36,792 nt of DNA from Methylotenera sp. (GTDB lineage: Bacteria > Pseudomonadota > Gammaproteobacteria > Burkholderiales > Methylophilaceae), in NCBI GenBank assembly GCA_009693255.1, contig SHXQ01000014.1, positions 1 through 36,792 on the forward strand. The letters are read 5' to 3'. The notes below the pieces were generated by a model. That model searched no databases. It saw only the letters and a list, made by a program, of their open reading frames with translations, and was not told where the DNA came from. Positions within the stretch are counted from its first letter, which is position 1, and each line of letters starts with the position of its first letter. The position numbers were made by a program, and so were the translations under genes. Below, piece after piece: positions 20,949-26,414 of the stretch.

Positions 20949-21659
20949 ATGGATAAAACTTTTAGAATTGCCCCTAGTATTCTTTCGGCAAACTTTGCCA
21001 AACTTGGTCAAGAGATTGATGATGTCATCAGCTCGGGCACAGATTTAGTGCATTTTGACGTGATGGATAATCACTACGTGCCTAACCTGACGATAGGCCC
21101 TTTAGTCTGTGAAGCGATTCGTGAAACCGCCAAGCGCGTGGGTGGCATTATCGATGTGCATTTGATGGTAAAACCTGTGGATCGCATCATTCCTGACTTT
21201 GCTAAAGCGGGCGCGAACATCATTACTTTTCACCCAGAAGCTTCTGAACATATCGACCGCAGCCTTGCCATGGTGCGTGACTTAGGCTGTAAATCCGGCT
21301 TGGTATTTAACCCAGCAACTTCACTCAGTTATTTAGACCATGTCATGGATAAAGTGGACATGATTTTATTGATGAGCGTCAACCCTGGCTTTGGCGGTCA
21401 AAAATTCATCCCGGAAACTTTAAATAAATTACGTTTAGCGCGCGCTAAAATTGATGCCTATTATGAAAAAACAGGCCGTCAAATATGGCTAGAAGTAGAC
21501 GGTGGCGTCAATGCACAAAATATTGCTGAAATTGCCCAAGCAGGGGCAGATACCTTTGTCGCTGGCAATGCAATTTTCACGCAAGGTAAAGACGCCGATA
21601 AAAATCGCTACAACACTATTGTCAGCGAGTTGCGCGCATCATTAGCGACAGTAAAATAG
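20949..21659 (+). CDS. rpe: Ribulose-phosphate 3-epimerase
   Basis: Rpe interconverts ribulose-5-phosphate and xylulose-5-phosphate in the pentose phosphate (and RuMP/Calvin) pathways. The 236-residue TIM-barrel has [39 protein letters not shown] and [12 protein letters not shown] with the metal-binding His and Asp residues, and [12 protein letters not shown] near the end. It starts the rpe-gph-trp cluster. Confidence 0.97.
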
Positions 21660-21670
21660 ACGGTCAAGCA

Positions 21671-22354
21671 TTGCCTAGTACCCCTAATCAGAAGTTCAAG
21701 GTCAAAGCCATCATGATTGACCTTGATGGCACCTTGATGCACACCGCACCAGAAATAGCGCGGGCGTCAAATCGCATGTTGGCTGCGCTAGGCAAATCAA
21801 CTTTAGATGCACGGCAGATAGAATCATATATCGGTGAAGGCGCGCATGCGCTGATTCAGCGCTGCTTAACAGAGCAATTGGGTGCAGAGCCTGAAGCTGC
21901 TGAATATGCAGAAGCGCAAAAGTTATTTTTTGAGTTTTATGCCCATAATGTGACTGAAAGCAAGCCTTATCCGCAGGTGCTAGAAGGTTTACAAGCTTTG
22001 CAAGCCGCAGGTTACCCATTAGCCTGCGTCACCAATAAGCCGGCAAGCTTTACCTTGCCTTTATTGGAAGCCAATCATTTAATGTCCTACTTTAAGTTGG
22101 TCGTGTCTGGGGATACGTTATCAAAAAAGAAACCAGATCCAGATCAGCTTTTTTATATTTGTGAAAAACTCGGCATTTCAATAACGGACGCCTTACTTAT
22201 CGGCGATTCTAAAATGGATATTGCGGCAGCCCGTAATGCAGGTTGCTATGTATTTACCGTGCCTTATGGCTATAATCAAGGCCAGCGCGCAAAAGCCAGT
22301 GAGGTAGATGCGCGTATTAAGCATATCGGTGATGCACTCGCTTGCTTGCATTAA
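21671..22354 (+). CDS. gph: Phosphoglycolate phosphatase
   Basis: Gph is a HAD-family phosphatase that hydrolyses 2-phosphoglycolate formed by oxygenation or DNA repair. The nucleophile Asp17 and Asp19 lie in IDLDGTLMHT, motif II is in CVTNKPASF, and GDSKMDIAAARNAG carries the acidic motif IV. The best start is a TTG at 21671, since the only nearby ATG is at 21713 and would trim the first strand. It is the usual partner of rpe in this cluster. Confidence 0.93.
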   Translation: MPSTPNQKFKVKAIMIDLDGTLMHTAPEIARASNRMLAALGKSTLDARQIESYIGEGAHALIQRCLTEQLGAEPEAAEYAEAQKLFFEFYAHNVTESKPYPQVLEGLQALQAAGYPLACVTNKPASFTLPLLEANHLMSYFKLVVSGDTLSKKKPDPDQLFYICEKLGISITDALLIGDSKMDIAAARNAGCYVFTVPYGYNQGQRAKASEVDARIKHIGDALACLH

Positions 22355-22374
22355 CAATTAAACCTATTTAATCT
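22346..22374 (+). promoter_or_regulatory. Candidate promoter of the trp operon
   Basis: TTGCAT and TAATCT are 17 bases apart. The -35 box lies inside the last codons of gph. Transcription would begin near 22381, only about five bases before the trpL ATG. No trp operator was recognised. Confidence 0.3.
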
Positions 22375-22385
22375 AACTATCTAAC

Positions 22386-22436
22386 ATGAACATCAGTAAC
22401 AGCAAAACATATAGTTGGCGATGGTGGCGGGCCTAA
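22386..22436 (+). CDS. trpL: trp operon leader peptide TrpL
   Basis: The 16-codon frame [16 protein letters not shown] begins at an ATG and ends in TAA. It has three Trp codons at positions 11, 13 and 14 of 16, which is far above chance, and it lies 78 bases before trpE. Short peptides with clustered Trp codons in front of trpE are the hallmark of ribosome-stalling control (Yanofsky-type attenuation). There is no good ribosome binding site, which fits a near-leaderless transcript if the promoter given is right. A conventional gene finder would miss it. Confidence 0.75.
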
Positions 22437-22509
22437 AGCCCCCAAGTAGCGCAAAGCGGATGAATAGCCGCGCCAAACGACACCATTTAAACCAAGCTAT
22501 AGCTAAGGA
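22410..22509 (+). promoter_or_regulatory. Trp leader RNA structure before trpE
   Basis: TATAGTTGG (22410-22418, holding the first Trp codon) can pair with CCAAGCTATA (22492-22501, one bulge), and ATGGTG (22421-22426, Trp codons 13-14) with CACCAT (22481-22486). The pairings are nested and end three bases before the trpE ribosome binding site TAAGGA (22504-22509). Two smaller hairpins lie inside: GGGC/GCCC at 22429-22441 and GCGG/CCGC at 22456-22471. No stem is followed by a U-run, so transcription termination is not obvious; stalling at the Trp codons may instead open the region for trpE translation. Confidence 0.5.
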
Positions 22510-22513
22510 AATT

Positions 22514-24022
22514 ATGTTTAGTACGATTAATTTAGAACAGTTCAACGCTCTTGCCCAACAAGGCTATAACCGCATTCCACTGGTGTTGGAAACTTTTGCG
22601 GACTTAGATACGCCCTTATCGCTATATTTAAAATTAGCCAATCAACCATACTCTTACTTGCTAGAATCTGTGCAAGGTGGCGAGCGTTTTGGCCGATACT
22701 CAATTATTGGCCTGCCGGCAAAAACGCGCATCGTTGCCTACGGCAATCAAGTACAAGTACTTGAAGGCGATATTGTTGTTGAAACAGCAGAAAACACCAA
22801 CCCTTTAGACTTTGTTAAAGGTTATCAAGCCCGCTTCAAAACGCCACCTTATCAAGGTCTACCGCGTTTTACAGGTGGGCTGACGGGTTATTTTGGCTAT
22901 GAAACTGTGCGCTATATTGAAAAAAGGTTAGTCGGGGTGAATAAGCCGGATGCGATTAACGTACCGGATGTACTGCTGATGCTGTCGACCGAAATTGCCG
23001 TGGTTGACAACTTAAGCGGTAAGCTTTATTTCATCGTCTACGCCAATCCAGCCCAAGCCAATGCCTACGAAAATGCCTATGCTCGCTTAACTGAATTGCT
23101 GAAAATGTTACGTAAAACTGTGGCGATACCACAAGCGCTTGCCACAACAAGCTCAGTCGCTAGCTCAGAATTTGGTGAAGATAATTTCAAAGCGGCCGTC
23201 AAACGTGCGCAACAATATATTTTAGATGGTGACATCATGCAGGTAGTACTTTCACAACGCATGTCACAGAAGTTTACTGCGCCACCACTCTCCTTATATC
23301 GCGCTTTACGCAGCTTAAATCCATCGCCTTATATGTTTTATTACGACATGGGCGATCATCATGTGGTGGGTGCATCACCGGAGATTCTAGTACGGCTTGA
23401 GAATGGCACCGTCACTGCGCGCCCAATTGCTGGCACGCGCCCACGAGGCAAAACCCGCGAGCAAGATATCGCGCTTGCCGAGGAGCTGCTGGCAGACCCA
23501 AAAGAGCGTGCTGAACATGTGCAACTCATGGATTTAGGCCGCAATGATGTCGGTCGAGTAGCGCAAACCGGCACGGTCAAGGTCACGGACAACATGATGA
23601 TAGAGCGTTACTCGCATGTCATGCATATTGTCAGCAACGTTGAAGGTAAACTCAAAGCGGGTATGGATGCAATTGATGTGATTAAAGCTACCTTCCCTGC
23701 CGGCACGGTAAGTGGTGCGCCTAAAGTCCGTGCCATGGAAATCATTGATGAACTAGAACCCAGCAAACGTGGCATCTACGCTGGCGCAGTCGGTTATTTA
23801 GGCTTTAATGGTGATATGGACGTAGCGATTGCCATTAGAACCGGTGTGATTAAAAACAATATACTCTATGTGCAAGCCGGTGCTGGCATTGTGGCAGATT
23901 CAGTCCCCCAAAGTGAGTGGGATGAAACGCAAAACAAAGCGAAAGCCGTGCTACGCGCTGCTGAATTGGTACAAGCGGGTTTGGATTTGAATAGTGAAGC
24001 GGTTCCGAAAGTAGGGTATTAA
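22514..24022 (+). CDS. trpE: Anthranilate synthase component I
   Basis: TrpE makes anthranilate from chorismate, with ammonia supplied by TrpG. The start at 22514 ([10 protein letters not shown], 502 residues) is chosen because it has TAAGGA eight bases upstream and matches the family; the open frame continues upstream through 22415, which overlaps trpL. Residues [15 protein letters not shown] hold the tryptophan feedback site (LLES). The C-terminal chorismate-binding core has [24 protein letters not shown] and [13 protein letters not shown]. It is the first gene of trpEGDC. Confidence 0.97.
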
Positions 24023-24023
24023 C

Positions 24024-24587
24024 ATGTTACTCATGATCGATAATTACGATTCTTTTACTTACAACTTGGTGCAATATTTAGGTGAGCTGGGGCAAGAAGT
24101 GCAGGTCTACCGTAACGATGAAATTGATTTAGCCAAAGTGGCGTCACTCAAACCTACGCATATTGTCGTTTCGCCAGGCCCGTGTACGCCTAATGAAGCG
24201 GGCATCAGCGTACCGTTGATTAAAGAATTTTCCGGAAAAATTCCTTTGCTAGGCGTCTGTTTAGGCCATCAAAGTATAGGTCAAGCGTTTGGTGGGCGTA
24301 TTATTAAAGCTAAAACTTTAATGCACGGCAAAACATCGTTAATTTACCATCATAATATTGGTGTATTTAGAGACTTACCTAACCCTTATACTGCAACGCG
24401 CTACCATTCCTTAGTCATAGAAAAAGAGACTTTGCCAGATTGTTTAGAAATTACTGCATGGACCGAAGATGGCGAGATTATGGGCGTACGTCACAAGACT
24501 TTACGGGTTGAGGGTGTACAGTTTCACCCGGAGTCTATACTCACCGAACATGGCCATGCGCTTTTGAATAATTTCCTGAAAGAATAA
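24024..24587 (+). CDS. trpG: Anthranilate synthase glutamine amidotransferase component
   Basis: TrpG splits glutamine and passes ammonia to TrpE. The class I amidotransferase nucleophile Cys79 is in LLGVCLGHQ and the His and Glu of the triad lie in [10 protein letters not shown] near the C terminus. The 187-residue length is that of a single TrpG, not fused to TrpD. It could also serve PabB, as in many bacteria. It begins two bases after trpE. Confidence 0.96.
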
Positions 24588-24591
24588 ATCC

Positions 24592-25602
24592 GTGTCATTT
24601 TCACAAACGCTTAATCAAGTCATCAATGGTCAAAACTTAAGTTTTACCGTGATGCAGTCTTTGATGCGGCAAGTGATGGCAGGTGAGTTAACGCAGGCAC
24701 AAATTGCCGGCGTATTAATCGCCTTGCGCATTAAAGGTGAAACGGTTGATGAAATTGCCGCTGCCGCCAGCGTCATGCGCGAGCTTTCTACTAAAGTCAG
24801 CATCAGCAACGATACGCATTTGATTGACACCTGCGGCACCGGTGGCGATGGCATACAGACCTTTAATGTTTCTACAGTGAGTGCATTTGTCGCGGCTGCC
24901 GCAGGCGCCAAGGTCGCTAAGCATGGTGGTCGTTCTGTATCCTCTACTTGTGGCAGTGCCGATGTATTAGAAGCACTGGGTGTGAATGTCAATCTGTCGC
25001 CAGCGCAAGTGGCTAAATGTGTGGATGACATCGGCATTGGTTTTATGTTTGCGCCTAATCACCACAGCGCCATGAAGTATGCCGCACCAGTAAGACGCGA
25101 GCTAGGCGTGCGCACTTTGTTTAATCTGCTAGGTCCTCTCACCAACCCAGCCAATGCCAAGCGCCAAGTGATGGGTGTATTTGCTAAAGTGCTTACCGAA
25201 AAATTAGCCCACGTATTACAGCAACTGGGTAGTGAGCATGTGTTGGTGGTGTGCGGCGCAGATGGCATGGATGAGATTTCATTTACCGGCGACACGCATA
25301 TTGCCGAGTTAAAAAATGGCCAAGTGACCGAATACACCATTAATCCTAGCCAATTTGGCATGGCATTGCATCAATTAAAAAGCATACAAATTCAAAATGC
25401 AGACCAATCAAAAGCCATGATTTTAGAGGTGTTGCATGGTAAAACAGGCGCAGCGCGCGATATTGTACTACTCAATGCAGGCGCTGCAATTTACGTTGCT
25501 GGCGTGGTAGATAGTTTGCAAACCGGCATCAACAAAGCCGCAGAAGTGATTGATAACGGCTTAGCTTTGGCCACATTAAACGCACTTAAAAAAACGACCT
25601 AA
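24592..25602 (+). CDS. trpD: Anthranilate phosphoribosyltransferase
   Basis: TrpD joins anthranilate to PRPP in tryptophan synthesis. The PRPP-binding GTGGD is at 82-86, with [21 protein letters not shown] following. The 336-residue length is normal and the start is GTG, four bases after the trpG stop. There is no fused TrpG domain. Confidence 0.96.
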
Positions 25603-25622
25603 CGCAATACACTGGAAACAAT

Positions 25623-26414
25623 ATGTCAGATATTTTAAATAAAATTTTAGCCTCTAAAAAAATAGAAATTGCCGCGAGCAAAGCGGCGGTCAGTCTAAGT
25701 CAATTGCAAAAGCAGACAGAAGCGCAAGGCGAGCCACGTGATTTCGTAGGCAGCATACACAAAAAAATCATGGCCAATAAACCAGCGGTGATTGCTGAAA
25801 TTAAAAAAGCCAGCCCCTCTAAAGGCATTATTCGCGCCGACTTTAATCCAGCAGAAATTGCCAAGAGCTATGAAAAAGGTGGCGCTGCGTGTTTGTCAGT
25901 GCTTACTGACGTTGAATATTTTCAAGGCTCTGCTGCGTATTTAAAACAAGCCCGCGCCGCGTGTAAGTTACCCGTATTGCGTAAAGATTTCCTCATCGAT
26001 GAATATCAAGTTTTTGAGGCACGTGCGATGGGGGCTGATTGTATTCTGCTGATTGTGGCTGCGCTTGAACTCAAGCAAATGCAGGCATTAGAATTATTAG
26101 CCAACGAACTAGGCATGGCAGTACTAGTAGAAGTACATGATGCCGATGAATTAGCCTTGGCGGTACAATTGGACACACCGCTCATTGGCATTAATAACCG
26201 TAATCTACGTACTTTTGAAGTGACCTTGCAAACCACTTTAGATTTATTAAAAATAATGCCGGATGACCGTTTTGTTGTCACAGAATCAGGCATCTTTACA
26301 CCCGAAGACGTTAAGCTAATGATGGACAATGATGTGCAAGGATTTTTAGTAGGTGAAGCCTTTATGCGTCAGCCTGACCCAGGTGTAGAATTGGCAAGAG
26401 TGTTTAATTGTTAA
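25623..26414 (+). CDS. trpC: Indole-3-glycerol phosphate synthase
   Basis: TrpC closes the indole ring from CdRP. The 263-residue TIM-barrel has the conserved [32 protein letters not shown] and [14 protein letters not shown] segments and the end [12 protein letters not shown]. It is the monofunctional form, without a TrpF domain; trpF, trpB and trpA are not in this window. The gap from trpD is 20 bases. Confidence 0.97.

Follow-up and report, generated by a model that had tools for sequence, protein, structure and literature searches.

Textbooks explain transcription attenuation by the trp operon, and a short Trp-rich reading frame in front of trpE in Methylotenera sp. raises the question of whether such a leader would control the next gene by terminating transcription or by hiding and exposing the trpE start. 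The frame lies in a stretch of 36,792 nucleotides (contig SHXQ01000014.1), the whole of which is referred to here as the window. The gene order on the + strand is rpe, gph, the leader ORF, trpE, trpG, trpD, trpC and hemB. Upstream of the leader are rpe, encoding ribulose-phosphate 3-epimerase (20949..21659; TIGR01163 above cut-off), and gph, encoding phosphoglycolate phosphatase (21671..22354; NF009695 above cut-off), whose stop codon is separated from the leader ATG by a gap of 31 nt. Downstream, trpE encodes anthranilate synthase component I (22514..24022; TIGR00564 above cut-off), and trpG, trpD and trpC, recognized by profile matches, are contiguous with it (24024..26414).

The leader ORF itself (22386..22436, + strand) consists of 16 codons plus a stop codon and has a counterpart in relatives. 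Exactly as an earlier note on this DNA had claimed, three Trp codons (residues 11, 13 and 14) fall within its final six. The note had also placed the ORF correctly ahead of trpE, with a distance of 78 nt that should read 77: the leader stop ends at 22436, the trpE ATG is at 22514, and no known frame lies in the spacer between them. The Trp-codon core is UGG CGA UGG UGG (Trp-Arg-Trp-Trp; 22416..22427, + strand), and across an alignment of 17 sequences UGGCGAUGGUG is invariant. The trpE initiation region (22504..22518, + strand), assigned from the sequence and the predicted fold, comprises the Shine-Dalgarno (SD) sequence UAAGGA at 22504-22509 and the start AUGUU. The trpE frame is open in the 5' direction as far as a TTG at 22415, within the leader Trp codons; this TTG is probably not the start of an N-terminally extended trpE, because a stop codon interrupts the frame in relative L001 (judged by eye). 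A promoter-like match inside the leader (22387-22415) is at chance level, with 2 such matches in the region against 1.8 expected, and its TATAGT is common to one of the 16 aligned close relatives (L021).

That the leader is a real ORF is clear from its occurrence in relatives, which is far beyond chance. The trpE loci of 80 relatives (L001-L080), with TrpE identities of 78 to 95%, were collected as a family set; 63 of the 80 are labelled as Methylophilaceae (genera, family or order), one as Sulfuritalea and the others as proteobacteria. A short Trp-rich ORF, defined by at least two Trp codons in the last 16 residues and a position shortly before trpE, occurs just 5' of the gene in 79 of the 81 family sequences, the window counted. 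The exceptions are L019, in which the contig ends 40 nt upstream, and L042, in which one Trp codon is left (by eye). Under a strict criterion the leader is present in 72 of 80 sequences (window included, contig-end L019 excluded), and of 944 positions drawn at random from these loci 0.64% satisfy it. The N-terminal residues of the family leaders are variable and the Trp-Arg tail is conserved; all 16 aligned close relatives retain at least two Trp codons. Conservation of these codons, on which the earlier note had let its proposal depend, is thus borne out. In the 77 sequences where the distance could be measured, the leader start lies -4 to 85 nt from the stop codon of a long upstream frame, and the leader is therefore usually inside or directly behind the upstream gene, in the window behind gph. 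Because many leaders begin so close behind that stop, leader translation may be coupled to translation of the upstream gene.

Two wider samples were added. At the level of the order, 113 loci were examined, of which 65 had a candidate leader and 48 had none by the criteria used. Fourteen candidates were removed by hand (four repeats of window or family loci, L081-L084, and ten doubtful ORFs), leaving an order set of 51 that still holds three loci of the same family (L085-L087). The class-level sample began with 85 genomes, 79 of which had a match; 65 loci were fetched and 64 were usable. These genomes are presumably gammaproteobacteria of other orders, given their kinship label and the GTDB taxonomy. 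Leaders with RW, WR or WW tails were found in 29 of the class loci, and 35 of the 64 had no leader by the criteria. The class leaders were used without manual cleaning; L215 was left out since it could not be positioned, and a single leader among the 29 was too short for the swap test described below. Finally, the 130 leaders of the family and order sets (79 and 51) were greedily thinned to 60 representatives with dissimilar sequences.

Three scans of the window found no intrinsic terminator (a hairpin with a U-tract) between the leader and trpE, in agreement with the earlier observation that no stem there is followed by a U-run. Against Rfam, the sole match at gathering score in the whole window was a tRNA, with no trp leader family, and between 22340 and 22600 two matches appeared up to an E value of 10, both at chance level and both to unrelated families. 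These results tell against classical ribosome-mediated transcription attenuation with an unusual terminator, in which the predicted hairpins would be antiterminator and terminator forms. Such an explanation seems unlikely for the window, although Trp-codon leaders like this one are known from textbooks as transcription attenuators (with E. coli trpL as the control here) and the family data leave it some ground. A strict terminator test was positive in 0 of 81 family sequences, which is no strong result, since 1.7% would be expected by chance. A looser test, which asked for a hairpin and U-tract at -12 kcal or better, was passed by 5 of the 79 family loci, 9 of the 51 in the order set and 5 of the 29 in the class set, as against 0 to 0.5% of shuffles (none of them in the comparison with the five family loci); at -8 kcal it was passed by 9 of 79 family loci and 2.2% of shuffles. 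Of the five family hairpins, four have short or broken U-tracts, reading CTTTTGT or TTGTTTG, and one is followed by TTTTTCA. Because a hairpin with a U-tract is present in some loci, with strong examples outside the family such as L180 and L187, transcription attenuation may operate in places.

If the leader acts without a terminator, it could do so by covering the trpE start, and the predicted fold of the window offers several helices. The leader start, AACAUGA (22383..22389), is predicted to pair with UUAUGUU at the trpE start (22512-22518). Seven pairs are possible in 15 of the 17 aligned sequences and six of the seven in the other two, L009 and L012. The end of the segment before the Trp codons, together with the first Trp codon (UAUAGUUGG, 22410..22418), is predicted to pair with 22492-22501, immediately 5' of the trpE SD; the helix is UAUAGUUGG:CCAAGCUAUA in the window, and L001, L003, L005, L010, L013 and L016 have the shifted register CACATA:TATGTG instead (with one G-U pair in L003). 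A third helix, already proposed in the earlier note, joins GAUGGUG (22420..22426) to CACCAUU (22481-22487). A small predicted hairpin, GGGC-loop-GCCC (22429..22441), spans the leader stop codon with no U-run after it; like the leader segments above it is on the + strand. In the ensemble of window folds, trpE positions -14 to +2 have a mean paired probability of 0.62, of which the leader accounts for 0.60.

None of this is exceptional for the window taken alone. The stretch from leader to trpE folds no more stably than shuffled copies do, with a z of -0.53 and 57 of 200 copies doing as well, and the window considered by itself gives z -1.16 for the pre-Trp segment with the trpE start and z -1.36 for the leader with the downstream region. 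Nor do the Trp codons fare better in relatives. Their pairing with the bases before the SD gives a mean z of -0.36 against shuffles in the 79 family leaders and -0.01 in the 51 order leaders; 518 and 355 of 5000 swaps between genomes were as good in the two sets, as were 9080 of 20000 for the 60 dissimilar representatives. Pairing of the Trp codons with the whole spacer was matched by 1101 of 5000 swaps. A conserved helix between the Trp codons and either region is accordingly rejected, there being no excess over shuffles or swaps. The long nested pairings reported from the sequence (22410-22418 with 22492-22501, and 22420-22426 with 22481-22487) do occur in the predicted fold, and what does not hold up is their conservation. 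Column-wise covariation in the 17-sequence clade of the window is uninformative, because there is hardly any variation in the start-start helix and the register of the middle one shifts between the window and its relatives. With a fold like that of shuffled sequence and a Trp-codon pairing at chance, it is only comparison that lifts structure at this locus above chance.

The comparison that does so is a swap test. The leader before its first Trp codon was paired either with its own genome's trpE initiation region, taken as about -24 to +5, or with that of other genomes. In the order set (n = 51), native pairs averaged -17.38 kcal and swapped pairs -12.21 kcal, and 0 of 5000 swaps were as good as the native arrangement. 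The family set (n = 79) gave -12.79 against -8.63 kcal, again with 0 of 5000, although the sequences there are related and not independent. For the 60 dissimilar representatives the averages were -16.93 and -10.95 kcal; 0 of 20000 swaps were as good, and 55 of the 60 beat their own swapped average. The result is the same when swaps are restricted to GC classes (n = 87; 0 of 20000) and when both start codons are removed (n = 85; 0 of 20000). L094 was omitted from these two tests; its long complementarity between leader and start is made of CACAGAGACACAGAGGCACAGAG-type sequence, which we take to resemble a dispersed repeat. Measured against shuffled initiation regions, the mean z is -2.39 in the family (47 of 79 below -2) and -2.67 in the order set (35 of 51).

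The position of the complementarity is informative as well. When leaders were scanned along their own loci in the family, complementarity peaked at the trpE start, at -14.1 for the segment centred at -4, with -11.5 and -11.3 in the adjoining positions and -5.2 to -9.9 elsewhere. In the order sample a second peak, at +156 within trpE (22 loci), equals that at the start, and specificity there therefore depends on the swap tests. The SD region and the start codon are covered by paired positions in the 57 of 60 representatives that have a duplex of -10 kcal or better. Perfect Watson-Crick runs of at least 8 nt occur in 21 of 89 native pairs as opposed to 1.7% of swapped pairs; examples are CTCCTGTA (L091), CCTGAAAAC (L128), ACCTGGAA (L199) and CCATCACCTGG (L225). 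Pairing of the leader start codon with the trpE start codon appears in many of the 37 family duplexes that were displayed, as it does in the window. The pre-Trp segment is also more complementary to the region upstream of the SD in native than in swapped pairs (-14.53 and -11.39 kcal; 0 of 20000 swaps as good; 60 representatives), and the helix would therefore extend beyond the trpE start. As far as these comparisons can locate it, the helix that carries the signal is formed not by the Trp codons but by the segment before them, together with the leader start codon, pairing with the trpE SD and start codon.

The same pattern reaches the class-level sample, where 28 leaders gave -16.70 kcal in native and -11.24 kcal in swapped pairs (0 of 10000 swaps as good). 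Class loci without a leader have a small native excess (-15.95 against -14.68 kcal; 136 of 10000 swaps as good), which may reflect missed leaders. That co-evolution is aimed at the trpE start is a further point against classical attenuation, and it also bears on a Rho-dependent scheme. In the latter, clearance of the leader would let Rho use the untranslated gap before trpE, and a stalled ribosome would block Rho or restore coupling. The lack of an intrinsic terminator in the window and the 77-nt gap with no known frame would suit Rho, and hidden trpE starts would favour Rho polarity in any case. Such a scheme nevertheless leaves the complementarity between leader and trpE start across lineages unexplained, the gap is mostly poorly conserved, and Rho is an improbable principal agent here.

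Hairpins with a U-tract between the leader and trpE were observed in the order-level loci L090, L140, L148, L171, L180 and L187. Three of these combine a better U-tract with poor start pairing, as judged by their ranks in the swap test (L187, 0.92; L148, 0.74; L090, 0.65), and three are counterexamples with low ranks (L180, 0.22; L140, 0.12; L171, 0.04). Lineages may have switched between control of transcription and control of translation, although the number of loci is too small to claim it.

The reading that we consider probable for the window is a tryptophan-responsive translational attenuator, to which the conserved leader and the co-evolving complementarity in relatives both point. It keeps one part of what the earlier note proposed, namely that a Trp leader lacking a terminator may act by exposing the trpE start rather than by classical termination, and replaces the other, since the helix concerned would be that of the pre-Trp segment with the SD and start. 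The leader ORF at 22386-22436 would be translated before trpE, and its 5' half, which reaches from the start codon up to the first of the Trp codons, is complementary to the trpE SD and start codon. With plentiful Trp-tRNA, the leader would be cleared of ribosomes and fold onto the trpE start, keeping trpE translation low. When Trp-tRNA is scarce, a ribosome would stall at UGG CGA UGG UGG while the following ribosome queued or initiated, and the two together would mask the leader half of the helix and release the trpE start.

An energy model with ribosomes placed on the leader gives this scheme some quantitative shape. Across the 60 representatives, the modelled cost of opening the trpE start is 11.6 kcal with no ribosome present. 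With a single ribosome it depends on the position: 5.5 kcal for the leader start, 9.1 for the first Trp codon, 11.0 for the last one and 11.2 for the stop codon. A stalled ribosome with another queued behind it brings the cost to 5.7 kcal, as compared with 5.9 kcal when the pre-Trp segment is shuffled, and the ribosome-free cost exceeds the shuffled cost in 59 of the 60. In the model, release by two ribosomes amounts to at least 2 kcal in 47 of 60 representatives and at least 5 kcal in 35 of 60. A single stalled ribosome yields a reduction above 1 kcal in no more than 32 of 60; set against a ribosome at the stop, a stall at the first Trp codon frees more in 36 of 60 and less in 6 of 60. The full effect requires the queued ribosome, which the model adds only if the first Trp codon is number 10 or later. 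In 39 of 79 family leaders that codon is number 11, a position that would leave about one ribosome footprint behind the stalled ribosome. On these model costs, stalled and queued ribosomes would free trpE, and a ribosome that completes the leader and reaches its stop codon would not.

The window is a member of this pairing pattern, but a weak one. Its rank in the swap test is 0.69, its helix is interrupted by internal loops, and its pre-Trp part pairs worse than that of most relatives tested. Its modelled costs are 7.6 kcal free, 6.7 with one ribosome, 4.5 with two and 5.3 with the segment shuffled. It is conceivable, if very improbable, that there is no regulation in this lineage at all, the leader being a remnant or the pairing merely fixing the level of trpE translation. 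Besides the weak pairing of the window, the family member reduced to a single Trp codon, L042, would fit such a loss. The three Trp codons of the window and their retention in close relatives do not, and neither does the 3.1 kcal that a stalled and a queued ribosome would release in the window according to the model.

A further feature is an excess of one Arg codon beside the Trp codons. Of 107 Arg codons that come directly after a Trp codon in the leaders of the 60 representatives, 44 are CGA, as against 9 of 191 in the first part of trpE; in the window the CGA is at 22419-22421, inside the Trp-codon core. The adjacent pair CGA-UGG is present in 42 of the 79 leaders of the family, 29 of the 51 of the order and 23 of the 29 of the class. 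This last figure is inflated, as is the presence of WR in 130 of 130, because the choice of leaders favoured WR, RW or WW tails and, in the class set, additionally CGATGG or TGGCGA. The pairing tests (shuffles, swaps and the whole spacer) do not account for the excess of CGA. One idea is that a slow, inosine-decoded CGA held in the P site while UGG waits is the cause of the excess.

Comparison with E. coli is instructive in both directions. The leader there is likewise a short ORF; it lies 91 nt before trpE and carries adjacent Trp codons next to an Arg codon (WWR). Its Trp codons pair downstream. Unlike the window, however, E. coli has a terminator hairpin with a U-tract, detected by the same test at -13.4 kcal, and its leader is complementary to its trpE start by only -4.3 kcal, which is weaker than with the starts of other genomes (-8.0). 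The reviews of proteobacterial attenuators by Vitreschak (2004) and Merino (2008) are likely to list leaders from betaproteobacteria, and the leader peptides, if perhaps not the start pairing, may have been described before. No translation-level trp leader in beta- or gammaproteobacteria is described in the titles and abstracts among the matches listed.

Trp-codon leaders are already known, as are translation-level leaders for antibiotics and cysteine, and one for leucine has been proposed. In ermC, a four-segment switch frees the SD. The likeness lies in the leader peptide, ErmCL, and in a ribosome stall that exposes the SD of the next gene; the stall there is caused by an antibiotic, whereas here Trp codons and direct pairing of leader and trpE start would be involved (PMC10219788). 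Polycysteine leader ORFs of mycobacteria are closer in being leaders of amino-acid codons before an amino-acid operon whose downstream translation they control (PMC9031893), and cys leaders with no obvious terminators are also on record (PMC1262725). They differ in that the amino acid is cysteine, the ORFs are leaderless and the organisms are Actinobacteria. In the LEU element before leuA in Actinobacteria, the partner of the SD, at the base of a pseudoknot, is the run of Leu codons itself, whereas here it would be the segment before the Trp codons that pairs with the SD and start. The trpL of Sinorhizobium meliloti (rnTrpL) is another Trp leader before trpE, and differs in acting by transcription attenuation with a terminator and a released sRNA (PMC7298713). 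Attenuation is also reported for trpE and trpGDC of Pseudomonas putida, another gammaproteobacterium.

Taken more broadly, the chances seem about even that, the E. coli lineage apart, a large share of beta- and gammaproteobacteria use a translation-level Trp switch at trpE. In such a switch the leader start region would be the reverse complement of the trpE start region, the two being mutually exclusive, CGA beside UGG would hold the ribosome, and lineages would have moved between translation and transcription attenuation. If this is true, attenuators form a more varied family in which the E. coli scheme is a single branch, and lineages with either or both mechanisms make the evolution of attenuation testable. 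It would also suggest a search rule: a leader whose 5' half is complementary to the next start could reveal translation-level leaders that searches for terminators miss.

Some smaller observations concern the leader itself. An SD match of at least 4 nt is missing from 55 of 79 family leaders, from about 66 of 79 random positions and from 32 of 79 trpE genes; in the window the stretch concerned is 22372-22385. In the genome to which the window belongs, TGGCGATGGTGG occurs at four sites, and the three besides the leader overlap long frames on either strand.
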